64,000 bases of DNA from Verrucomicrobiaceae bacterium. GTDB lineage: Bacteria > Verrucomicrobiota > Verrucomicrobiia > Verrucomicrobiales > Verrucomicrobiaceae. Within the stretch, counting starts at the first letter, position 1. Each line of letters opens with the position of its first letter. The position numbers were made by a program, and so were the translations under genes. The stretch covers positions 1 through 64,000 of the forward strand of contig JAIXOU010000079.1 of assembly GCA_027486585.1 (NCBI GenBank). The letters are read 5' to 3'. Positions 16,621-28,088 of this stretch are shown here, piece after piece. The notes under the pieces were generated by a model that worked only from the letters and a program-made list of their open reading frames with translations, was not told the DNA's origin and made no database searches.

Positions 16621-18351
16621 TCAGTTTTTAGTCGTCGCATCAAACTTCCAGCTCGTTTTAAAATCGTGGGTGAGGGGCTGTTTTAGCAGGCTGGCTCGCA
16701 CAAGTTCAATGGGGATGGGGCCGAGGTGGAGGATGGCGTCGTGGAATTGTTTTTCGGTCACCTTACCGCTGGTGACGAGTTCTTTGTGCAGGGCGATGAG
16801 CTGGAGTCCGCCGAGCATGTAGCCGCATTGATAGAGCGGGGAGTAGTCGCCTTTGATGAAGCGGCGGACTTCACTCGTGGCTCCGAATTTCTCGTGACCG
16901 ACTCGATCAACGAGAAATTTCACCATCTCGTCTGACTTCATTTGGCCGAGGTGAAACTTGAGCGTGACGATGATTCGCGCGCAGCGATGCATGCGCCAGA
17001 AGAGTGCGCCGATGCGGTCCTCGGGAGTGGTTTGATAGCCGAGATCCCAGAGGCGCATCTCCCAGTAAAGAGCCCAGCCTTCGACATTGAATGGGGTGCT
17101 AAAGCCTTGGCGATGGATGCTGTGGCGGTCGGCCATGTAGCGCTGGAGATGGTGACCGGGGATGAGTTCGTGAGGCACGACGTTGCGCATGAAGGGGCGA
17201 TTGTTGCCACGCATGGACATCATTTTGTCTTCGTGCTTCATGCTCTCATTGGCATAGGCGACGAGGATGTCGTGTCCACTGTAGGCAGCATAGGGCATCT
17301 CTTTCTGCTCCTGCGGGCCTAGCATCCGTGTGCCCCACCACTCCGCGCAATCGGTAGGCACGGTGACAAGGTCGCGCTTGGTGACGAACTCGATGGCGCG
17401 TTTGCCTTCAGCGCGGACAAACGTTTCTTGCTCGCCAGGGCGGACGTATTGGAGCTTCACGCGGAGCAGGGCCTTTTTCCAATCGTCGCCAAGCTTCATC
17501 TCCTCGGCGGCTTTTTTCATTTCGTTCTCACACCAGGTGAACTCACGCTCGGCGATGCTGATGAGCTCGTCGGGAGTATAAGGGATGAACTCATGCGCGA
17601 GCTGCTCTTGCAGGTTGCTAGCCCCCTGAGCTTTGCCGAGCAAGGGGGCGTCGTCCTTGCCTTTGATACCGGCGATCTCTTCACGCAGATATTTGGCGTA
17701 GCCTTCCAGAGCCTTGGCGGCCTCGTCATAGGGCTGCTTGATCCACCAGTTAAAGTCGGGCAAAAAACCCTCGTAGTTGCCTAACCAAGATTTCAAAGAA
17801 TCCCGCATGGCATCCACTGAATCCGCAGCGCGCACGGCTTGTAGTGGTGTGGGCAGGGCAGGGGAGAGCGGCTTTTTTTCACCCTCCGACTTCTTCTCCT
17901 TAGCTGACTTGAGCTTGTTTTGCAGATCAATCACGTCTTTGGCCAATGGCGCTAGTGTAGTGGCTGCCTTTTCGACATTCAACGGATCACCGTGAACGCG
18001 CTGCTCAGTGAGGTTGTCGATGATCGGGCGGAAGGGCAGCCATGGCGTGAGTTCTAGGGCATCATCTCGGCGATCTCCGAGGCGCATGAGTGTGGCCTCA
18101 AGGTCATTGCGGAGCAGGATGTAGTCGATCTGATCTGGCGATTCGAGGTTGGTGAAGTCCAGCTTTCCAAGTCGCGTCAGCCATCTCTGAGTCAGTTCCT
18201 GCTCACGGTCATACGACTTGGCCGAGTCCCCCGTGATGGCCCAGTGACGCTGGTGCAGGCTGGCATCCGCTGCGTATTGCTCGATGAGCTCCCGAGGGCT
18301 TTCAGCGCAGAGTTGGGTGGAAAGGAAAAGAAAAAGGAAGTAGCGACTCAC
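16621..18351 (-). CDS. DUF885 family secreted putative zinc peptidase
   Basis: The 576-residue product starts at a GTG (18351) and has a signal peptide (MSRYFLFLFLSTQLCA). The DUF885 family is related to M32-type metallopeptidases. The zinc motif HELIPGHH begins at H394, with family-like Glu-His spacing, and the later LYWEMRLWDLGY segment supplies the usual downstream Glu. Such proteins are periplasmic or lipoprotein peptidases of unknown substrate. Two 5-7 residue charged stretches (KSAKEKKSEGEKK) mark a linker near residue 150. It lies 43 bp after the last permease gene and 14 bp before the ADH gene on the same strand, so it might be carried on the tail of the YtrA-type operon transcript, but no terminator decides this. 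Confidence 0.85.
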   Translation of the reverse strand: MSRYFLFLFLSTQLCAESPRELIEQYAADASLHQRHWAITGDSAKSYDREQELTQRWLTRLGKLDFTNLESPDQIDYILLRNDLEATLMRLGDRRDDALELTPWLPFRPIIDNLTEQRVHGDPLNVEKAATTLAPLAKDVIDLQNKLKSAKEKKSEGEKKPLSPALPTPLQAVRAADSVDAMRDSLKSWLGNYEGFLPDFNWWIKQPYDEAAKALEGYAKYLREEIAGIKGKDDAPLLGKAQGASNLQEQLAHEFIPYTPDELISIAEREFTWCENEMKKAAEEMKLGDDWKKALLRVKLQYVRPGEQETFVRAEGKRAIEFVTKRDLVTVPTDCAEWWGTRMLGPQEQKEMPYAAYSGHDILVAYANESMKHEDKMMSMRGNNRPFMRNVVPHELIPGHHLQRYMADRHSIHRQGFSTPFNVEGWALYWEMRLWDLGYQTTPEDRIGALFWRMHRCARIIVTLKFHLGQMKSDEMVKFLVDRVGHEKFGATSEVRRFIKGDYSPLYQCGYMLGGLQLIALHKELVTSGKVTEKQFHDAILHLGPIPIELVRASLLKQPLTHDFKTSWKFDATTKN

Positions 18352-18394: not shown

Positions 18395-19960
18395 TCATTT
18401 CATCTCGATGAGACGCTGCATGTCTTCTACGCTGGTATCTAGTTCCACCACACCGCACTCCACCGGCCACCAGAGGTCTAGCGTGCTGTCATTGAGCCAG
18501 TCTTGAAGCTTTAATCCGGCGATGTCCATCTGTGGGCGGGGGTGAGAGAACGAAAAATTCACGGGACGTTTTTGATGGCGCTCCAGCAGGCCATCATGGG
18601 ACCAGTAGTGCTCATCGCCCTCGCTCGCCGTGCGTACCTCGCGGATGCTGGGGGAGTGTAGGAGTATGAGAAAATTATCTTCCGTTCGTGTGCCATTGAT
18701 CGTGAAGCGGTTTTGTTCAGTCCGCGGAGCCAGCATAGGGAAGCTATGCCTCAGCTCTGCTCCGAAAGTGAGTCTGCTGTGCTTGTTGAGGTCCTGGATG
18801 TGAAAATCCAGTCGGCGGCCTGCGTCCACCACTACCTTATGATGGCCTCTCTGGCTCATCGGCAGCGTGTGCAGCTTGGTCATACGTTGCACAGCCAGTT
18901 TGATTCGCCATGGTTTGGGTTCATTCCCGATGATTTTTTTTAGAGGTGTTCGACTGGCTAAATCTACTTTGCCATGCCAAAGCGAACCTGCTGGGTAATG
19001 AGACATGAGTGCGCGAGTATGCTCCTGAGTCATCCAGCGATTACGCTGGGTCACGAGGCCTGAAATTTCTTGGGTTATCGTATAGTCTGAAAACACGCTT
19101 TTTTTGCCAAACTCTGACAATGACACGACACTTGCGACATGATCAGCGGGCAGACCTGTTAGATAGAGCCCTGGCCAAAGCTCTTGTGAATTCGCTTCAG
19201 GCTTTTTTCCAAAATGCAGCGCTAGTTTTGAATCTGCGAATACAGGTTCTGGCCGCGCACGCCAATCCCAGCGCCAAAAATACACTGCTAGCAGAATCAA
19301 TGCAGTGCCTGTGAATAGCACTGGCCATGCACGACGAGCCAAGCTCAACCGCCACCAAGCCCCAATCATGGTTACACACCACACACAGGCCGCCACAGCC
19401 CAAATGTAGCGCACGTCGGGATTCTCAAGTTTCACCGTGCTTTCCAGGAACCATTGGCCAATGAAAACGGAGATGCCGATGCCACTCAGGATCATATTTC
19501 TTCGACCCGAGCTGCTGCCACAAACAAGAACGGCGACGAAGCTGCCCAAGATGACTGCGGGTAGTGCACGGCCTAGCACCGTAAAAAGCCACTCTACCGC
19601 ACCAAAGCCCAAGCCTTGGAACTCTGGCCACACACAGGCCGTCCTGGGAAGCAGCAGCGCCAGTATGAAGAACAATACCTTGGCCAGCCACACCGCGTCA
19701 CGGCCCAGTGGGCGTGTGTGGGAATTTACGTCAGCATTCATTGGCGCATCTACCCGTACGCTACGCACCACGATGAGCAGAGCCAAGATGCCCGGCAGCC
19801 AATCTGGAAGTGGGATCTTTGACGGGGCATCTTTCACCACCTCCCAACACTGGAATCCTAGTGCCGCCCACCAAAGTAAAACCAGTCCACGCTGGGCTCG
19901 CCATTCTTGCGCGAATTGATGGCTTACTCGGGAACTAAAAGTTGTAGAGGATAAGCTCAT
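18395..19960 (-). CDS. ABC exporter-type permease B' (paralogue of 22545-24236)
   Basis: The 521-residue product has about seven hydrophobic segments in the N-terminal half (for example LVLLWWAALGFQCW, LAKVLFFILALLLPRTACVW and VILGSFVAVLVC) and a C-terminal domain of about 280 residues outside the membrane. It is clearly related in order and motifs to the 563-residue B protein: both begin with a HQF-EWR segment, have TRP(L/I)G followed by LWLGKLAF-like text, a LWPGLYLTGL / LWPTLRITGL block, and end in a basic-to-acidic ELDxS or DLELS segment. I chose the ATG at 19960, whose ATGA overlaps the A' stop. It is the last permease gene of the operon. Function as an ABC transporter membrane subunit is inferred from co-transcription with the ATPase. 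Confidence 0.8.
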   Translation of the reverse strand: MSLSSTTFSSRVSHQFAQEWRAQRGLVLLWWAALGFQCWEVVKDAPSKIPLPDWLPGILALLIVVRSVRVDAPMNADVNSHTRPLGRDAVWLAKVLFFILALLLPRTACVWPEFQGLGFGAVEWLFTVLGRALPAVILGSFVAVLVCGSSSGRRNMILSGIGISVFIGQWFLESTVKLENPDVRYIWAVAACVWCVTMIGAWWRLSLARRAWPVLFTGTALILLAVYFWRWDWRARPEPVFADSKLALHFGKKPEANSQELWPGLYLTGLPADHVASVVSLSEFGKKSVFSDYTITQEISGLVTQRNRWMTQEHTRALMSHYPAGSLWHGKVDLASRTPLKKIIGNEPKPWRIKLAVQRMTKLHTLPMSQRGHHKVVVDAGRRLDFHIQDLNKHSRLTFGAELRHSFPMLAPRTEQNRFTINGTRTEDNFLILLHSPSIREVRTASEGDEHYWSHDGLLERHQKRPVNFSFSHPRPQMDIAGLKLQDWLNDSTLDLWWPVECGVVELDTSVEDMQRLIEMK

Positions 19961-22548
19961 GGCTTCGACGTCGTGTTGAGTTTCCACTGGAGTTTTTCCG
20001 GGTCGTATCGAAAATCATGCGCGCTCCAAGTGCGGCAGTTCTTGATGAATGCCGCCGTATCTGCGCGCTGTATCGATTCACCGAAAACTGAGCTATGAAA
20101 ATTTTGAATTGCGCCCTCATGAGATAGGTTTGCGTCATCAAACAAGCCGAATATTCGCAGTGCCAAATCTAATGCTTTGATATCACCCAATAAAGATTTG
20201 CACGCGATGATGCTGAAAGACTTTTCTCTTCTGAATAAAGCTGCCCGAGGTATTTTTAGATACTCTTGGTCAACGATGATCTTGGCTTTATCTCGGTAAA
20301 AGGGATCAAGCAAGAGTCTTTTTAGGTCCCAATCATCCATGTATAAGAAAGGTTTTCTGCAAAATTTTTCCCAGATGTTCTCTGTGGTCTCCGAAGTATT
20401 TTCTTCACGTTCCATGAGCGGTCGCAGAGGTTCATCAGAGTGTGTTTTTAGAGCTTGGATTATGGCTGTGGATATTTTAGACCAATCTTGCTCAAATGAA
20501 GAGATCCACGGTTCTTGATTTGTGTGTTGCTCGCCGCCCTGGGCGGTTGCTTCTAAAACACGCATGAAAAAACCTGGGATCTTAGCTTCAAACAGCACTT
20601 CACTGACAATGCGTTTTTTCAAAGTCCCTTCGTTGAATGGCATGCTTGCGACTATGGCGCTGATGATTTCGGGATGTTCGATGATTACAGGCGCTAGCAA
20701 TGCAGCGACCTCTCGTTCGTTGTCTAACCAGCGCTGCTGATTGAATTTATCTATATTGTACCGATTGGAGAATGCTAGAGAGGCCGAACATACTGTAGCT
20801 ACAAAGCGTGCAGCCTCATCTTTGCTTGCTCCTTTTTGCGGTCTGGGGATTCCTTTTACATGTTTTAAAAAAGCTTCATGAGGATATCCGCTTTCTACAG
20901 CGACCTTAGTGCGCGGCCATATATCCAAGTCATGAATGTGATCACTCAGCACGAAATTCTCAACCTTCACCTCATGCCGCGACGTGCCTAGATATTCTCC
21001 ACCGATCCACACCAGCTCCTGCTCCGCAAGATTCTCTGACGTGACACCGCTGCCAGGTATCAGGACGCCATGCAGGAAGGTGACTGTGCGCGAGATCGTC
21101 ACCCAGCCCTGATTCGCGCCGCGCTCTTGTGTAGCCCCGTCCATCACCTGATGCCACAGCAGGCGCTTGTCTTTTCCGAGTAAGCAAAGACGCGAGGAGA
21201 TCGGAAGCATCTTGTTTCGGCCCGCGAAGGTCGTGTGTCGCTCGAGCAGTTTCAGTGTGATGGCTGCCGGATCTTTATGCCCTTGATTATCAAAGCCGGC
21301 GATGACCTCCATTACCTCAATTTCGCTATCCTGCGTGCAGATGTTCGCTCCAGGCTTCAAAGGCATGCGACCTAATTCACGCAGCCGCATCCACTCCGCA
21401 GACAGATCTCGGTCCAGCGTGATCGGAGTATGCGTGTCTGTTTTTATGTCGACCGTGGCCAGGTTGGTTTCTTGTGCTGGTTCTTCCATGACCGCCAGTG
21501 TGTCACTCGGCCAAGCTGCTGGCAGGTAAGGCACCAGAGACTGATTAAAGGTCACTCGATTTAGCTCCCAAACGGCTGCTTTCGTTTTCAGACTAATCTT
21601 TTCCACGTCTGGCAACGGCTGACCTTTTTGGTTCATTTTATGACGCACCACATGCCAGTGCGGCACGATCTCTGGAGGCAGACCATTCAAGGGAATCTGA
21701 GCAACCAGTTGGTGTTTGTTTTCAGTTGACGTTAAAACTGAGATCTTATGATGATCAATCACCAGCTGGCGATCTTTGACAAGCTCATCGACAAGCGCCT
21801 GGTCATGCGGTCGCTCCAAGCGACTAGGGATCAACATGGATTGCGCAAGCGCCGATAACAGTAGTCCCATGATCAGCGGCAATCCTAGACGTACGGACTT
21901 TCCAAATGGATGATGAGCGTGCCAGTAGGCGCAAATGAAAATAAGAGGAAGTAGGCACCCGCCCGAGATGAGCATCGTGCTGGAGTCATAAAACCGCTGC
22001 TCTTCTCCTCGATAGGCAAGGCCAAGCCCTTCAAAAATCGAAGTCGAAAGTGATCCGCCCAAGCCATAGATAAACAGCACGAGCGCCACATACTTCTCCC
22101 AACCGCGAAACAACGCCGCTGCTGGTAGCAGCCACAGAAGCATCACCGCTGCAGCAAGCCCCGTTTCCAGCATCCCTGTTCGGAGATCCACCCAACCGCG
22201 ACCGCTTAACAGTAAAAAAGCCGCGTTTTCGAGTATTAATGGCAGCATCATCAGCAGGACTCCTGTCATCAGTCGTGCCTGCCAATAATCACGGCGCGAA
22301 AGCGGGCGTGTTCCGTGAAACGCAGCATCGCGATCTTCTGGCGGCACGCACAACATGAACCAGCATGCTATAATCCACATCGGCAGACTCAAAAAGAACG
22401 ACGGCAACATGATGTTCGACTCCTGCGAGATCGGAAAAACCCATTGCATCTGCAACGCCAAATCGAAACAGATCGCTAACAACAACCCACACCAGCGCAG
22501 CCACAGGTAGCGGAAGTCTTTGATAAAATGATGAAGAGTAAGGTTCAT
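19957..22548 (-). CDS. ABC exporter-type permease A' (paralogue of 24233-26782)
   Basis: The 863-residue product has about seven N-terminal transmembrane segments (residues about 15-250, for example WCGLLLAICFDLALQMQWVF and AAVMLLWLLPAAALFRG) and then about 600 residues that are not hydrophobic. It is a clear paralogue of A at 24233-26782: both start MNL(T/V)LHHF-K(D/E)F-YL-LRW, both have the TRPL(S/P)-R-YW block and a similar C-terminus ending with D(F)-Y-PE-WKL. The large soluble part alternates beta-rich (residues about 280-560) and helical (about 580-863) stretches; the latter may include ARM/HEAT-like helices. Its start overlaps the B stop (ATGA at 22545-22548) and its stop overlaps B' (ATGA at 19957-19960), so translation is probably coupled. 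Confidence 0.8.
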   Translation of the reverse strand: MNLTLHHFIKDFRYLWLRWCGLLLAICFDLALQMQWVFPISQESNIMLPSFFLSLPMWIIACWFMLCVPPEDRDAAFHGTRPLSRRDYWQARLMTGVLLMMLPLILENAAFLLLSGRGWVDLRTGMLETGLAAAVMLLWLLPAAALFRGWEKYVALVLFIYGLGGSLSTSIFEGLGLAYRGEEQRFYDSSTMLISGGCLLPLIFICAYWHAHHPFGKSVRLGLPLIMGLLLSALAQSMLIPSRLERPHDQALVDELVKDRQLVIDHHKISVLTSTENKHQLVAQIPLNGLPPEIVPHWHVVRHKMNQKGQPLPDVEKISLKTKAAVWELNRVTFNQSLVPYLPAAWPSDTLAVMEEPAQETNLATVDIKTDTHTPITLDRDLSAEWMRLRELGRMPLKPGANICTQDSEIEVMEVIAGFDNQGHKDPAAITLKLLERHTTFAGRNKMLPISSRLCLLGKDKRLLWHQVMDGATQERGANQGWVTISRTVTFLHGVLIPGSGVTSENLAEQELVWIGGEYLGTSRHEVKVENFVLSDHIHDLDIWPRTKVAVESGYPHEAFLKHVKGIPRPQKGASKDEAARFVATVCSASLAFSNRYNIDKFNQQRWLDNEREVAALLAPVIIEHPEIISAIVASMPFNEGTLKKRIVSEVLFEAKIPGFFMRVLEATAQGGEQHTNQEPWISSFEQDWSKISTAIIQALKTHSDEPLRPLMEREENTSETTENIWEKFCRKPFLYMDDWDLKRLLLDPFYRDKAKIIVDQEYLKIPRAALFRREKSFSIIACKSLLGDIKALDLALRIFGLFDDANLSHEGAIQNFHSSVFGESIQRADTAAFIKNCRTWSAHDFRYDPEKLQWKLNTTSKP

Positions 22549-24236
22549 GGCTTCTTCGGTTCAGGCTTCGGCTCCGCTAACACTTGGGCCATCTGTTTAG
22601 CGCTGAGTTCGAGATCGACGGTACCGCGCTCTTCGGCGTGCCAGAGGCTGGCGTTGAGGCGGTTCACCCAGTCCTCGTGTTTGGTTTTCAGGATGAGATG
22701 CTGCACGCGTGGCGGCCACAGGCGGGGGTTGAATCCTTGGGATTCCTCCACTTGAAAGGCAAAGTTTTGCTGACGATTTTGCATGTAGCCACGCTGCCCA
22801 GGACCGAGATCGTAGGCGGCGTTTTCATGAAGTTCGGGATCTTCGAGCACGAGAAAGAAAGCGTCTGCCAACGTCTGGCCGCGTGAGATGGCAGGCAGGT
22901 TTGGTCGTGGTGGAAGGAGCAGCGAATGAACGCGATACAGTCTGCCATTCAGCTCCCATGCCCCATTGGAAGGGACAAAGGGTCGAGTCTCAACGCGCAG
23001 ACCTGGTCGAATGGGGAAGGTATTGTTCTGGGTCCAGAACTGCTTGAATGGCACACTGGTAACGCGGCGCATCTCATGCACGGCCAACCGCAGACGCCAG
23101 CGTGCAGGCATGGCCTTAGGATCGAGTCGCAGAGGCTTGATCGCTTCCTGAATTTTCTGCCGTCCGCTGTAATAGCCGTCATTGTTTAAATAGTCCTGCC
23201 AGAGCGTGGTGGGCGGGCTGTGTTTGAGCAGCGCGCGGACGTGATCCCGGTGCATCCATGAATCGAAACCACGCTTGTTTTCCGGGAGATCGGTGTAGCT
23301 GCCCAGCGGCGGCCATGGGGTGTCATTTTCACTCATGGGCGCGAGGTCGATGATGCTGGCGACCTCGTCTTTGCCGAGGCCGGTGATGCGCAGGGTGGGC
23401 CAAAGGGATCGACCAGGAGTTTTGTCGGCTGGATCAGCTTTGCCGACCTTCACGCCGAGCTTGGCGGCAGGATAAGCCAGCGTGGGTGGTGTGATCCAGT
23501 CCGTCTTCCACATGGCCATGACCAGCGGTGCCTGTAGCAGACTCAGCAGCAGCAAAGCCGCCGCCCACGCACGACGGCGCGGCACCGTAGCCGTCCACCA
23601 GGCGATGAAGACGCCGACACAGGCGATCACACTCGCGATGATGCCACCACAGATGCGTGCTGAATCTGGCGTGGCTTTGGGATCGACAGGAGTGCTGCCC
23701 ATGGTGAAACCAAGTGTCAGCCAGATGCCCGCGCCGAGCACGCCAAGCACCGCAATGGCGATGACCTGCCGCGTGTTGCTGGCAAGCGCTGTCAGTGCCC
23801 CGGTGATGCCCACCACGAGAGCTGCGGAGAAAATCCAACCACTGCTGAGAGCCAACCATGCGGCAAGGCCATGCTGGAAACCCACCCAGCCCGTGCTTTC
23901 GACCATCACCAGCGGCAAGACGACACCGCAGGCCAGAAAGGCGAGTTTGCCCAACCAAAGAGCTGTTTGCCCGATGGGTCGAGTGAGCGTGGCGCAGTCG
24001 GTATTTGAGGGTGAATCGGAACGCACGCACAGCCATGCCACGGTGACAGCCATGAGGATGGTGATGAGTGGGATAAGGTCCACCAAGTAGAGATACGCAA
24101 AGGTGCCGTCCTCATCTTGGTGCAGATAAAGCCAGCGAAGGATCACCCACAGAATCCAGGCGATGATCCAGCCGCGATGGTGCCGCCACTCGGTGCGAAA
24201 CTGATGCGTGATGCGGAATGGGAGTGCGGCAGTCAT
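22545..24236 (-). CDS. ABC exporter-type permease B
   Basis: The 563-residue product begins MTAALPFRITHQFRTEWRHH and has about seven membrane segments (WIIAWILWVILRWLYL, LIPLITILMAVTVAWLCV, LAFLACGVVLPLVMV, WIFSAALVVGITGALTALA and others), then a soluble domain of about 330 residues from LAYPAAKLGVKVGKA onwards. It is the paralogue of B'. The ordering of a short N-terminal helix, membrane region and exposed C-terminal domain recalls ABC-2-type membrane proteins of the YtrC/YtrD kind, but is longer. It overlaps both neighbours by ATGA (24233-24236 with A and 22545-22548 with A'). No catalytic motif is visible in the soluble part, which may be a substrate or stress sensor. Confidence 0.82.
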   Translation of the reverse strand: MTAALPFRITHQFRTEWRHHRGWIIAWILWVILRWLYLHQDEDGTFAYLYLVDLIPLITILMAVTVAWLCVRSDSPSNTDCATLTRPIGQTALWLGKLAFLACGVVLPLVMVESTGWVGFQHGLAAWLALSSGWIFSAALVVGITGALTALASNTRQVIAIAVLGVLGAGIWLTLGFTMGSTPVDPKATPDSARICGGIIASVIACVGVFIAWWTATVPRRRAWAAALLLLSLLQAPLVMAMWKTDWITPPTLAYPAAKLGVKVGKADPADKTPGRSLWPTLRITGLGKDEVASIIDLAPMSENDTPWPPLGSYTDLPENKRGFDSWMHRDHVRALLKHSPPTTLWQDYLNNDGYYSGRQKIQEAIKPLRLDPKAMPARWRLRLAVHEMRRVTSVPFKQFWTQNNTFPIRPGLRVETRPFVPSNGAWELNGRLYRVHSLLLPPRPNLPAISRGQTLADAFFLVLEDPELHENAAYDLGPGQRGYMQNRQQNFAFQVEESQGFNPRLWPPRVQHLILKTKHEDWVNRLNASLWHAEERGTVDLELSAKQMAQVLAEPKPEPKKP

Positions 24237-26782
24237 GGTTGGCGGAGTTTCCAGGCGCGTTGTTCCGGCAGATAATCGAAGTCACTCACCTTGAGGTGGC
24301 GGTAGCGCGGCCATTGCTTTTCTCTGTCCACCTTCTGTTGCCAGAGCTTCGATCCATCGGCTTTGAGGAGATTTGGAAACGGCGTACTGCAACTCGGTGA
24401 AGGCACATCGCCAGCCAAAGCCATCCAGCGCAGGCAGACATCAAGTGCATCATGATCACCGAAGTCAGCCGCGATCTGGAAACGTTCAGCTACCCACCAG
24501 CCCTGATCCTTGAGCAAAGGCGTCTGGTTTTGAATGATCTCGCGGGAGAGCTTTTCGAGTCTTGGGCGCAAGGCTGGCACTAGGTTCAGTTGCTTAAAAG
24601 TATCTTCTTGAGCGAAACTGCGCTGCTCCTGCATGAGCTTTTCGTGGGAGGCTTCATCTCCCCATTTTAGCAGCAGTTCGTCCGCTCCATGCGGAAGCTT
24701 TGGCAATGAGAGTAATCGTGGCTGCAAACGACGTGCCGACTCCGTCCAGCCTTTGCGGATCAAGGTGTTGGTGAGCACCGAGTTCGTCATCACGAGGTCG
24801 ATGGCCATTTCGCGTTGAGCTTCGGTGAGGTATTCGTCGAGCAGCTTTTTCGGCGGCTGATTGTTCCATCCGGGCCAGAGGCTACTCGGCAGTTCCAGCA
24901 TCAGCGGCAAATGATACTGCATCAGTGGACGGAAGGCGTCCGACACCTCTTTTAATGCCGCCGTTTGATGGGCTACATCGGTAGTGCTAACGGTGGCGAG
25001 CAGGTCATAAAGATAGCGCCTTACTTCCGGCTCCGGTGTGCTGGCAGTGGGTGCTTTGAGCGTTGCCAGCCGATCTTGGAAAGCCTTGATCTCCCGCCCA
25101 ATATAGATGTTCTGATTGTGGATAGTCGGGGCACTCATCTGCGATGGATGATCACGCAGGACGATGTCGGGTGACTTCCAGGTCCACTCGCTGCTGCCGA
25201 GAAAACGGCTGCGCAGCATGATGAGGCGAAGCTGGGAGACATCCACGCCGGCGTCCTCGCCATCGGCATAGTTCAGCACCTTGCGCCAGCCGAGGCGGAG
25301 AGTATGTCGGCTCCAGCCAGAGGCTCCGGCACGGGGGGCGCTGCCTGTTTGAAAAGCTGGCTCCAGCCAGACCAGACGCCGCTGCGGTGAATAGAGAAGC
25401 ACGGTATTGGCGCTTGGTAGTCCGATCTCGACACCACGGGTCTGCACATGCAGTTCCACATTCACCTGCCCGAGACTCGGCGTGCCGGTTTCGTTTTGGT
25501 TCTCTTGCACCTGAATCACACGCCACGCGTGACTCTCAGACTGCCCTGTGCTTCCCACTTTCAGCGGGATGTTCAGTTCGAGATCGCGCTGATACCAGTC
25601 GATCTCGCACTCCGTTGTCACCCGCAGCGGCTTCTCAGGATTCGGGTAGGACGGCTTGAACTCAGCGAGGTGAGTGTTGGTCTCCGAATACATGCCCCAC
25701 ATCGACCTTTCGTTGGTCGTGGTGAAGATCGTGCCTGCTGGAAAAAGATCACGCAGCACCTGATCCGTGTTCATGACCGTTTCGAACGGCAGGCGGAAAT
25801 TGTTCCGACGTGTGCGGTGGTAGAGATTCGGAACGGAGATCTGGTCACGCCCCTCTTGCGTGATGCGTGCTCGCTGCGGTCGCAGCAACACTGACACAGA
25901 GGCATCACCTGTCTCTGCACGCACCTGGCCGAACATCTGCCGGTACATCTCTTCTTCGAACCCATTGAATCCATAAGAGGTGAGATCGAGTTCGGCCTTG
26001 AATTTCGTGGCCAGTTCACGAACGCGCGCCTGATCGAACGGCTCATCCTGCTCATGCCATGGCCAGAATCGCGCCGAAAGGAAACACGTCAGACCAATGC
26101 CAAACATGATCAGCAGGCGGCGACGAAACGTCGCCACGCGACTCCATTGATGCCGCCAGGCCATCCACAGGATGCCCGCTGCAAACATGAGCATTCCCAT
26201 AGTGGCACCCGTCACACTTTGATCCGCGCTCAAAATCGTGTTCGAGACTGTGAGCGCGATGAAATCGGCCAAACGCCCTACGATCAGCCAACCAGCCGCC
26301 AGCAATCCCAGCGCCGCCCAAAACTCACCCCGCCGCCACAGCGCGGTCATCGGCAGCAGCCACGCTGTGCATTGAATCACCCACACGGCGCGTGCCCAAG
26401 TTCCATCCAAAACTTCCATGGTGGGACGACCCGAAAGCATGAGGTAAAGCGCATTTTGCAGCAGGACGGGAAGCACCAAAAGCAGCAGCCACAAAGCCAC
26501 GCGCGTCAGCCAATACGCCCGCGTCGGCAAAGGTCGTGTGCTGATGAAGCTGCGATCACTGCCCGGCTTGTCTTCAGGACATGATCCCAGCAAACTCACC
26601 CCCGCCAGCATCAACACCCACGGCAGATAGACCAGCCACGCCGGAGGCTGCACACCCGCCCGTAGCGGGAAGAGCCATTCCAGATTCACTGCCAGCTCAA
26701 AACCCAGCAGTGCCAGAAAGCCAAACCAACGAAGCCGCAGATACGCGAACTCTTTGCGAAAGTGATGAAGGACGAGGTTCAT
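24233..26782 (-). CDS. ABC exporter-type permease A
   Basis: The 849-residue product starts MNLVLHHFRKEFAYLRLRWF, an amphipathic helix of the ABC-2 kind, followed by about seven membrane segments up to residue about 250 (for example WLVYLPWVLMLAGVSLLG, LWLLLLVLPVLLQNALYLML and RRLLIMFGIGLTCFLSARF), then about 600 soluble residues. The first part of that region (about 290-560) is beta-rich, while the rest is helical (FRPLMQYHLPLMLELPSSLW and similar). It is the first of the four permease genes, 3 bp after the ATPase stop. Family resemblance to YtrC-like ABC membrane proteins is an inference from the amphipathic N-terminus, the membrane topology and the YtrA/ATPase context. The role of the large C-terminal domain is unknown. 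Confidence 0.82.
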   Translation of the reverse strand: MNLVLHHFRKEFAYLRLRWFGFLALLGFELAVNLEWLFPLRAGVQPPAWLVYLPWVLMLAGVSLLGSCPEDKPGSDRSFISTRPLPTRAYWLTRVALWLLLLVLPVLLQNALYLMLSGRPTMEVLDGTWARAVWVIQCTAWLLPMTALWRRGEFWAALGLLAAGWLIVGRLADFIALTVSNTILSADQSVTGATMGMLMFAAGILWMAWRHQWSRVATFRRRLLIMFGIGLTCFLSARFWPWHEQDEPFDQARVRELATKFKAELDLTSYGFNGFEEEMYRQMFGQVRAETGDASVSVLLRPQRARITQEGRDQISVPNLYHRTRRNNFRLPFETVMNTDQVLRDLFPAGTIFTTTNERSMWGMYSETNTHLAEFKPSYPNPEKPLRVTTECEIDWYQRDLELNIPLKVGSTGQSESHAWRVIQVQENQNETGTPSLGQVNVELHVQTRGVEIGLPSANTVLLYSPQRRLVWLEPAFQTGSAPRAGASGWSRHTLRLGWRKVLNYADGEDAGVDVSQLRLIMLRSRFLGSSEWTWKSPDIVLRDHPSQMSAPTIHNQNIYIGREIKAFQDRLATLKAPTASTPEPEVRRYLYDLLATVSTTDVAHQTAALKEVSDAFRPLMQYHLPLMLELPSSLWPGWNNQPPKKLLDEYLTEAQREMAIDLVMTNSVLTNTLIRKGWTESARRLQPRLLSLPKLPHGADELLLKWGDEASHEKLMQEQRSFAQEDTFKQLNLVPALRPRLEKLSREIIQNQTPLLKDQGWWVAERFQIAADFGDHDALDVCLRWMALAGDVPSPSCSTPFPNLLKADGSKLWQQKVDREKQWPRYRHLKVSDFDYLPEQRAWKLRQP

Positions 26783-26785
26783 GGC

Positions 26786-27688
26786 TCATTTCCCTTCGAG
26801 ACGGTAAGCGCGAGCCAGAGCGACGAAGATCTCGCGCAGGCTCATCGGGCGGATTTCAGGAAGTGATGCACTCGGCAGCGCTTCGCGGAGCATGGAAGCG
26901 AGCTGCGCGTCGTTTTGAAAGCGGCTCGCGGTGAAGCGTAGCGTGCGTCCGGCCTGCTCGGCGTGCAGCCAGTCGGTGGGTAGATTCACGGGCGACCGCA
27001 CTTGATCGGGAAGTATGATTTCCACAGCACGGAAGCGGCTTTGCAGGCTGTCGCTCGTTTCATCAAGAGCGAGCTGGCCGCGATTGATGATGGCGATGCG
27101 ATCGGCGAGGCGCTGCACTTCCTCAATGTCGTGCGAGGACACAAAAACCGTCCAGCCTTCCTGCTCGGTAAGTTCGAGCAGACCGCGGATGAATTCATCG
27201 CGCACGAGTGGATCGAGTCCGCTAAAGGGTTCGTCGAGCACGACGAGCTTCGGCCGATACGCGAGGCTGCTTAGCAGGGCGGCTTTCATCCGCATGCCGC
27301 GCGAGAGATCTTTGAGCTTCGTGGCGAGGGGGAGATCGAATTGCGTGAGAAGTTGTTTCTCGAACGCAGCGTCCCAGTTCGGATAGAGTGGGCGGCAGTA
27401 ATCGAGGAACTGCTTCACCGTCATCCACAGCGGCAGTTCCATGTTTTCCGACACATAGCCGATCTGCGTGAACTCCTTCGGCCCGAGTTTTCGCGAATCA
27501 ACTCCCAGGATGGTGGCGCTACCGCTATCGGGCCGGTGCAGATTGAGCAGGCACTTGATGGTGGTGCTCTTGCCAGCGCCATTCGGGCCCAGGAAGGCGG
27601 TGACTTGGCCTTCGGGCACGTGCAGGCTCAAACCAGCGACGGCTTCGGTTTTACGGAAGCGTTTATGAAGATCGGTGATGGTGATCAT
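26786..27688 (-). CDS. ABC transporter ATP-binding protein (YtrB/CcmA-like)
   Basis: The 300-residue product is a cytoplasmic ABC ATPase of the export type. Walker A GPNGAGKST is at residues 34-42, the signature loop LSRGM at 128-132 (the usual second Gly is replaced by the conserved LSRG form of YtrB-type proteins), Walker B LVVLDEP at 148-154, and the H-loop His in SSHD at 186. The N-terminal 210 residues are the nucleotide-binding domain, and about 80 more residues follow as a C-terminal extension. It is the only ATPase in the operon and so must serve as the motor for four membrane proteins, presumably as a homodimer. It overlaps the regulator gene stop by ATGA (27685-27688), and the A permease starts 3 bp after it. 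Confidence 0.96.
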   Translation of the reverse strand: MITITDLHKRFRKTEAVAGLSLHVPEGQVTAFLGPNGAGKSTTIKCLLNLHRPDSGSATILGVDSRKLGPKEFTQIGYVSENMELPLWMTVKQFLDYCRPLYPNWDAAFEKQLLTQFDLPLATKLKDLSRGMRMKAALLSSLAYRPKLVVLDEPFSGLDPLVRDEFIRGLLELTEQEGWTVFVSSHDIEEVQRLADRIAIINRGQLALDETSDSLQSRFRAVEIILPDQVRSPVNLPTDWLHAEQAGRTLRFTASRFQNDAQLASMLREALPSASLPEIRPMSLREIFVALARAYRLEGK

Positions 27689-28047
27689 AGGCTTTTAAGG
27701 TGGGCGATGATTTGTTCGAGGGTGAGATTGAGATCGGCGGCTTCTTTGAGAAGGGATCGGCATGCGGGCGTGATTTGGGTGAGGCGCTCGGGGAGATCTG
27801 GCTGGTCGGGGACGGTGACAACCATGCCGATGCCGGGCCGCGAGTTGAGCCAGCCAGCGTCTTTGAGTAGCAAGACGACCTTGTGGGCAGTTGTCGGGCT
27901 GATTTTCAGCTCCTGACTCAGCGTTCGAACACTGGGAAACTCATCGCCTGCTTTCATCTGTCCAGTGAGGAGGGCCTTCCGGACGGCCAGAAGTATCTGG
28001 TCAGAAGCTGGCGCGCCGTCTTGGATCTGGATTGAAAAGGGCAGCAT
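27685..28047 (-). CDS. GntR-family regulator, YtrA subfamily
   Basis: The 120-residue product has the winged-helix domain of GntR regulators (residues about 10-75: ILLAVRKALLTGQMKAGDEFPSVR then LSQELKISPTTAHKVVLLL) followed by a short C-terminal tail of about 45 residues. The short length with no effector-binding domain is typical of the YtrA subfamily, whose members repress ABC-exporter operons and respond to cell-wall stress. The recognition helix is in ISPTTAHKVV. It is the first gene of the operon, with its stop overlapping the ATPase start. The perfect inverted repeat at 28062-28088, ending 14 bp before its ATG, is its likely binding site, so it is probably an autorepressor. No Shine-Dalgarno sequence is seen. 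Confidence 0.93.
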   Translation of the reverse strand: MLPFSIQIQDGAPASDQILLAVRKALLTGQMKAGDEFPSVRTLSQELKISPTTAHKVVLLLKDAGWLNSRPGIGMVVTVPDQPDLPERLTQITPACRSLLKEAADLNLTLEQIIAHLKSL

Positions 28048-28061
28048 GGAGTGGGTGTGTT

Positions 28062-28088
28062 TAGTGTAACAGTATTATTGTTACACTA
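28062..28088. promoter_or_regulatory. YtrA-type operator (perfect inverted repeat)
   Basis: TAGTGTAACA (28062-28071) and TGTTACACTA (28079-28088) are exact reverse complements with a 7-bp spacer. Within it AGTGTA (28063-28068) and TACACT (28082-28087) are 13 bp apart, the spacing I remember for the Bacillus YtrA operator. On the minus strand the centre reads AATAAT (28079-28074), a -10-like box, so a bound repressor would cover the operon promoter. It lies 14 bp upstream of the regulator and 86 bp upstream of the giant gene. Confidence 0.8.

Follow-up and report, generated by a model that had tools for sequence, protein, structure and literature searches.

We describe an operon of a Verrucomicrobiaceae bacterium in which a YtrA-type regulator gene (R) and one ABC ATPase gene (N) precede two pairs of large, paralogous membrane proteins (A-B and A'-B'). 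The reading that we favour, with modest confidence, is an exporter under YtrA-type repression: a single ATPase dimer would drive alternative A-B and A'-B' heterodimers carrying periplasmic caps. The operon lies in the window, as we call the whole 64,000-nucleotide stretch analysed (positions 1-64,000, forward strand, of contig JAIXOU010000079.1, assembly GCA_027486585.1; relative genomes are labelled G and mapped loci or stretches L, each with a number). Its six ORFs, all on the minus strand and in the order given by an initial annotation of this DNA (R, ATPase, A, B, A', B'), fill positions 18395-28047, and an operator precedes them:

28063..28087, minus strand: operator AGTGTA-13-TACACT (AGTGTAACA-N7-TGTTACACT), an exact palindrome 15 bp 5' of the R ATG
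27685..28047, minus strand: R, putative YtrA-type GntR repressor, 120 aa (Pfam GntR 2e-10)
26786..27688, minus strand: N, ABC ATPase, 300 aa (Pfam ABC_tran 6.8e-23, Walker A/B)
24233..26782, minus strand: A, permease, 849 aa (AlphaFold2 model)
22545..24236, minus strand: B, permease, 563 aa (AlphaFold2 model, NosY match)
19957..22548, minus strand: A', second A-type permease, 863 aa (BLASTP to A, own clade 100/100)
18395..19960, minus strand: B', second B-type permease, 521 aa (BLASTP to B, own clade 98/97)

The length of B' is counted from an ATG; the mechanical ORF begins at an upstream GTG. As the initial annotation had it, ATGA overlaps join R to N (27685-27688), A to B (24233-24236), B to A' (22545-22548) and A' to B' (19957-19960), and a 3-bp gap separates N from A. 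Among family loci and in G091, a genome of another family, A is directly followed by B in every module where both are seen. Ends compatible with a 4-bp overlap occur at 34 of 36 junctions (32 ATGA, one GTGA and one TTGA; the count takes in one R|N and 35 permease junctions but neither the L035 nor the L048 A|B junction), the exceptions being the A'-B' junction in L041 and a junction in L055. Through such overlapping start and stop codons A and B, and likewise A' and B', would be made 1:1. Comparison of the window operon with that of G040 (proteins 93-98% identical) gave dN/dS of 0.06-0.29 per gene, so all six genes are under purifying selection as gene averages; positive selection as a gene average was not seen between these two operons, and the highest value by domain was 0.41, for the soluble part of B'. 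A DUF885-family gene (16621-18351, minus strand) lies directly downstream on the same strand, 43 bp from B'; among the mapped family loci it is present elsewhere only at the G040 locus.

The GntR domain of R spans residues 15-77 of its 120 aa (Pfam, 2e-10), and the closest solved structures are those of the short GntR proteins Lin1836 (E 2e-7) and Lmo0741 (E 7e-7). YtrA-subfamily regulators are described in passages of PMC6746942 as proteins of ~120-130 aa with a GntR winged helix and a short C-terminal part, encoded at the head of operons that also contain an ABC transporter or membrane proteins. R, with 120 aa and a GntR domain, agrees in size and domain and is the first gene of an ABC-transporter operon, and the exact long palindrome at 28063-28087 supplies a further mark of the subfamily, an operator. 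Its half-sites and spacing are identical to those of the B. subtilis YtrA site, AGTGTA-13-TACACT, as given in a passage of PMC8060467 that cites Salzberg 2011, and this bears out the earlier description of the operon as YtrA-type. The palindrome is the sole site with three or fewer mismatches in the 6.5-Mb genome, and 0.01 sites would be expected by chance within the window.

In the family, the palindrome with at most two mismatches was found in 20 of 68 genomes, at one place in each (a reversed control pattern gave 0), and the coordinates of these sites put them at the regulator gene. All 20 genomes fall among the 22 family genomes with a match to B; the remaining two, G012 and G061, have sites with three mismatches. 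Over the 23 operons, half-site mismatches at the best site number 0 in 9 operons, 1 in 7, 2 in 3, 3 in 2 and 4 in 2 (G060 and G091), where the figure for G060 comes from a shorter stretch, a genome search having found an exact site there. Sites with three or four mismatches are not beyond chance (9 to 70 of 200 shuffles); G091, G061 and G012 retain a recognisable palindrome of the CTGTAAC/ACTGTAC type. Among more distant regulators 3 of 18 have a site with two or fewer mismatches, and several carry other palindromes there, so the exact operator is mostly not kept outside the family. Predicted YtrA-type control is strongly supported by the operator match, and we infer that R represses its own operon. 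Counting against our model, a strict promoter scan gave, for the operon strand, no sigma-70 promoter that coincides with the operator.

The 15 bp between the operator and the R ATG (28048-28062) show no ribosome-binding sequence evident by eye, so the transcript leader may be very short or absent. A divergent plus-strand ORF of 9848 aa with many repeated segments (28174-57720) starts 126 bp from the R start, so that this gene and R share the operator-bearing intergenic region; the repeats, judged by eye, are presumably Ig-like and SdrD/B-like. An edge ORF of 1691 aa has the corresponding position next to the operon of G040 (L033).

The translation of N contains Walker A (GPNGAGKST) and Walker B (LVVLDEP) motifs. 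Matched by Pfam ABC_tran (6.8e-23) and encoded in the same operon as the permeases, N has what is expected of the dedicated ABC ATPase of an ABC-2 system; it also matches the NCBIfam DrrA model, below the cut-off. Family loci have one ATPase gene per operon irrespective of the number of pairs. Between the window and G040, synonymous divergence reaches 0.50 in N, against 0.05-0.17 for the remaining genes compared, and DNA identity drops to low values at ~26,000-27,500 (one other 250-base segment, 21000-21249 in A', is as low), which suggests a likely recombinant patch, at ~26000-27500, centred on the ATPase gene. We did not rely on an ATPase tree, which covered 22 of the 23 genomes (N of G057 is broken) and included twelve rows with untrimmed 5' ends (325-694 aa). 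A defence system was also considered; PADLOC matched N alone, to generic ATPase models, and we make no such claim.

The four permeases are paralogues. BLASTP aligns A with A' at 24% over 683 columns (E 4e-33) and B with B' at 26% over 558 columns (E 1e-44), and these alignments show both the similarity and the shared motif blocks that the initial annotation had claimed for each couple. A more distant paralogy links A to B (BLASTP E 9e-6; profile-profile probability 98.8, E 4.7e-17, 378 columns), the homology spanning the membrane part and the first beta part. All four permeases thus share one ancestor. None of them matched a Pfam or NCBIfam family, and no further A or B copies beyond A' and B' were found in the genome.

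The AlphaFold2 model of A (pLDDT 83.0, pTM 0.79) predicts seven membrane helices (~1-243), a beta-domain (~262-536) and a helical domain (~564-830); that of B (pLDDT 79.8, pTM 0.79) predicts seven membrane helices (~1-242) and a beta-domain (~261-544). Residues 7-221 of B match NosY (Z 13.8, 196 aligned, 3.7 A), and the best 50 matches of the B membrane domain relate it to NosY, ABCG, ABCA and a mycobacterial efflux pump at Z 11.3-13.8; a Z of 13.8 for B is just above what helical bundles can reach by common arrangement. For the membrane part of A, a weak likeness to CcmB (Z 7.9) is within the range that bundles reach in this way. As modelled, the B membrane domain has the ABC-2 fold, to which A is linked through its homology to B. 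Foldseek searches with the A and B models gave no match at E 0.001 or better (best for B, 1.9e-3). The Pfam ABC-2 models did not match the window permeases, which counts against an exporter; their best E was 0.02, in one of 23 B-type proteins (0 of 23 A-type), and weak matches below the cut-off appeared in 3 of ten distant relatives. Searching the PDB by sequence with profiles of A and of B returned nothing better than E 0.026. Hydropathy alone also counts against the model, as it gives six membrane segments in A and B, not seven; it gives seven in the membrane part of A'.

The clearest block common to A, A', B and B' is a TRP motif in the TM2-TM3 loop. In ABC-2 proteins the coupling helix, the contact with the ATPase, lies between TM2 and TM3. 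A motif shared at this place fits one ATPase serving all four permeases.

The soluble part comprises ~605-620 residues in A and A', ~320 in B and ~280 in B', so that the 500-600-residue soluble domains initially described are found in the A-type proteins but not in the B-type ones. In both models the soluble region is predicted to exceed the membrane region in size. A count of seven helices, together with a basic loop ahead of the final one, would place the large C-terminal parts in the periplasm. The HExxH zinc-protease motif is absent from every A, B and distant row examined. On this absence, and with no Pfam match in the window permeases, the soluble domains were rejected as enzymes; an M1-peptidase-like A was dropped as well, the matches to leukotriene A4 hydrolase (Z 4.6-5.4) being within noise. 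In one of the ten distant relatives (L096), the protein ends in a carboxypeptidase-regulatory-like segment.

The main rival to the exporter model is a transmembrane signalling or mechanical device without transport, in which hydrolysis by N would move the periplasmic domains so that these work on a partner in the periplasm or bound to the wall, much as FtsEX works on hydrolases. Such a device is favoured by the size of the predicted soluble parts relative to the membrane part, and by the absence of HExxH from the rows checked and of Pfam enzyme domains from the window permeases. A role of this kind is discussed for the Bacillus Ytr proteins in passages of PMC8060467 and PMC12772383; according to the latter, a 2025 study, Bacillus ytr may not be a transporter, which counts against the exporter model. 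The nearest fold matches of B, however, belong to the ABC-2 proteins, many of which transport substrates, and we regard the device as rather unlikely, though deserving of weight.

Homology makes the window operon one version of a layout spread more widely in the Verrucomicrobiota, with weak relatives across the phylum. A B query matched 22 of 68 family genomes; the other 46 had no match, so the system is dispensable. In genome samples that overlap, the A profile matched 26 of 288 genomes of the order and 16 of 384 of the class, and the B profile 22 of 387 of the phylum. Outside the family G091 matches at 1.7e-260; the rest are weak hits (E 6e-19 to 1e-3), for the most part confined to the membrane part. 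In 25 mapped stretches, from outside the family or from extra contigs, R-like and N-like genes precede the permease gene(s) in 20, and an N-like gene alone does so in five (L095, L100, L102, L108 and L109); permease length in these stretches ranges from 236 aa (L110, almost tailless) to 1498 aa (L099).

Pair content varies among the 23 operon genomes (22 of the family plus G091). A-B stands alone in seven (G034, G026, G022, G023, G009, G091 and G042, the last on two contigs) and A'-B' alone in three (G059, G035 and G005), each behind its own R-N. Both pairs occur in five (the window genome, G040, G021, G019 and G032, the last on two contigs), deep-branching single pairs in another five (G012, G013, G017, G060 and G061), and two (G056 and G057) are left outside the pair classes, their contigs ending inside B. 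In G047, A3-B3-A-B-A' lie on one contig and B' at the end of another, which probably makes an operon with three pairs behind one ATPase. The A-B-A'-B' form is that of a named strain, Brevifollis gellanilyticus NBRC 108608. One, two and probably three pairs in relatives suggest swappable channel parts, that is, an export machine in which these are gained, lost or swapped and the motor stays constant.

Between N and the first permease gene, G047, G009, G023 and G022 carry a PIN-domain toxin-like pair of ~700 bp (Pfam PIN 9e-6 to 1e-4, three of four above the cut-off):

L036, 5858-6500, antisense to the operon: PIN-pair insertion
L039, 5689-6319, antisense to the operon: PIN-pair insertion
L045, 11776-12454, antisense to the operon: PIN-pair insertion
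L044, 7199-7865, antisense to the operon: PIN-pair insertion

The gap between N and the first permease gene is an insertion hot spot. A '240-aa gene' between N and A in G047, G009 and G023 was rejected as a permease, as it is antisense to the PIN toxin-like pair. In L034, L038, L044, L050 and L053 the operon is followed by a conserved gene for a protein with MKRRxFLLACGSTAFAA near its start (oxidoreductase-like by eye), and in these five loci the operon probably lies at a shared genomic site; the neighbours of the window operon differ from theirs.

The initial annotation spoke of a tandem duplication, which stands as a description of the window operon; judged from the trees, however, A-B and A'-B' are old paralogous lineages of a modular system and not the products of a recent duplication, and relatives carry single-pair operons of either type. 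Single-copy operons in close relatives, with A' and B' arising elsewhere, had been named as what would speak against the duplication, and the A-B-only and A'-B'-only operons answer to this in part. A' and B' form clades of their own (100/100 and 98/97), both of which take in genomes with A'-B' alone. In an A tree rooted with four distant outgroups, which left out six of the 30 A rows, A' separates close to the base from all remaining A proteins of the family (other side 82/93), so the duplication is old. Either tandem duplication with later loss or the joining of two operons may have brought the pairs together, as both fit.

It is also conceivable that ancient tandem duplication and differential loss produced the mixed pair content on their own, with no exchange between lineages. 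The basal split of A' agrees with this, as does the existence of extra old lineages such as A3, which makes hidden paralogues possible. On an rpoB tree of 20 of the 23 genomes (G056, G057 and G022, with no or partial rpoB, were left out), six changes are needed for A'-B' presence and five for A-B presence, counts that score the five deep single-pair genomes as without both pair types. The A proteins of G047 and G042 are sister to the window A; rpoB places both genomes beside G021 and G034. In a topology-test tree of 13 of the 30 A rows, imposing the rpoB grouping on six A proteins lowers the log-likelihood by 401 units (p-AU 3e-38), which argues against loss alone. So does the A of G091, which sits inside the genus: forcing it outside costs 56 log-likelihood units (p-AU 4e-8), for a constraint group picked after inspection of the tree and a draft assembly in which the contig may be misplaced. 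Exchange of permease modules would be the simplest cause of the conflict between A and rpoB, with hidden paralogy or a misplaced G091 contig as alternatives, and we give loss alone a minor but not negligible chance.

Distinctly improbable, in our judgement, is that A'-B' is a modifier, which regulates or caps A-B or shares one ATPase dimer with it so that all four permeases sit there together: branch lengths do indicate faster divergence of A'-B' than of A-B, but A'-B' occurs alone behind its own R-N in G059, G035 and G005, so that A-B is not needed, and A' and B' are under purifying selection as gene averages.

In the exporter model, R would sit on AGTGTA-13-TACACT just upstream of its own start and keep the whole R-N-A-B-A'-B' operon off. 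Its release, triggered, by analogy with Bacillus, by a disturbed membrane-bound cell-wall precursor cycle, would allow expression. An N homodimer would then power two alternative ABC-2-type exporters, the A-B and A'-B' heterodimers. With its seventh membrane helix, each subunit would have its C-terminal part on the periplasmic side. There the beta-domains, joined in A and A' by the helical domain, would build a cap for receiving the substrate or for contact with a partner. Separate pairs would serve separate hydrophobic or amphiphilic envelope compounds, a guess at the substrate guided by the ABC-2 fold. Of the envelope-stress exporter proposed by the initial annotation, the ABC-2 exporter part is supported by the fold of B and by the ATPase, whereas a stress role would follow by analogy only. 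Beyond the exporter model itself, we consider it possible, though somewhat doubtful, that the operon is a cassette exporter: a conserved repressor-ATPase chassis that would gain, lose or exchange between species heterodimeric pairs whose large periplasmic domains change fast, so that one motor would run one to three pumps of different specificity. If true, this would give the Verrucomicrobiota something comparable to the combinatorial loci of receptors or immunity.

The system resembles Bacillus subtilis ytrGABCDEF in having a YtrA-type repressor gene in an ABC-transporter operon and an identical operator (passages of PMC8060467). Passages of PMC8060467 and PMC12772383 give Bacillus two ATPases, YtrB and YtrE, with YtrC, YtrD and YtrF; the window operon, in contrast, has one ATPase and two pairs of permeases of 521-863 aa, in which Pfam searches up to E 1 gave no FtsX or ATPase match. 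With one ATPase and no YtrF-like gene, the transporter differs from Bacillus YtrBCDEF and is set apart by its gene content. A second YtrA target, ywoBCD, is named for Bacillus in a passage of PMC8060467, whereas the window genome has a single site. Bacillus ytr is induced by lipid II-cycle inhibitors, and passages of the 2025 study doubt a dedicated antibiotic-stress role (PMC12772383).

A likeness to staphylococcal Pmt is seen in matches of R to NCBIfam PmtR (37.3 bits, curated cut-off 200) and of N to PmtA (148.5 bits, curated cut-off 350), and in a PmtCD chain (PDB) among the Foldseek matches for B (E 0.22); the matches of R and N, however, fall well below the curated cut-offs. To our knowledge, the Pmt system is without large periplasmic domains. 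With the ABC-2 exporters (NosY, ABCG, ABCA, CcmB) B shares the fold of its membrane domain, ~200 residues, to which the A and B models add a seventh helix and a C-terminal soluble domain, with no clear Pfam match.

No published verrucomicrobial or duplicated-pair YtrA system was found among the matches listed from the open-licence PMC literature. New here are permeases that belong to no Pfam family, their large soluble tails, and the presence of one to three pairs per ATPase under a YtrA regulator of known type. The Bacillus-type YtrA operator ties this uncharacterised permease family to a well-used cell-wall-stress reporter. One shared ATPase for several permeases is also described, in published abstracts, for MsmK/MsmX, where the permeases serve sugar uptake; here, in contrast, the proposed exporter pairs lie in the same operon as the ATPase. 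Operons with one to three pairs amount to a natural test of whether a single exporter ATPase is able to power several permease pairs.
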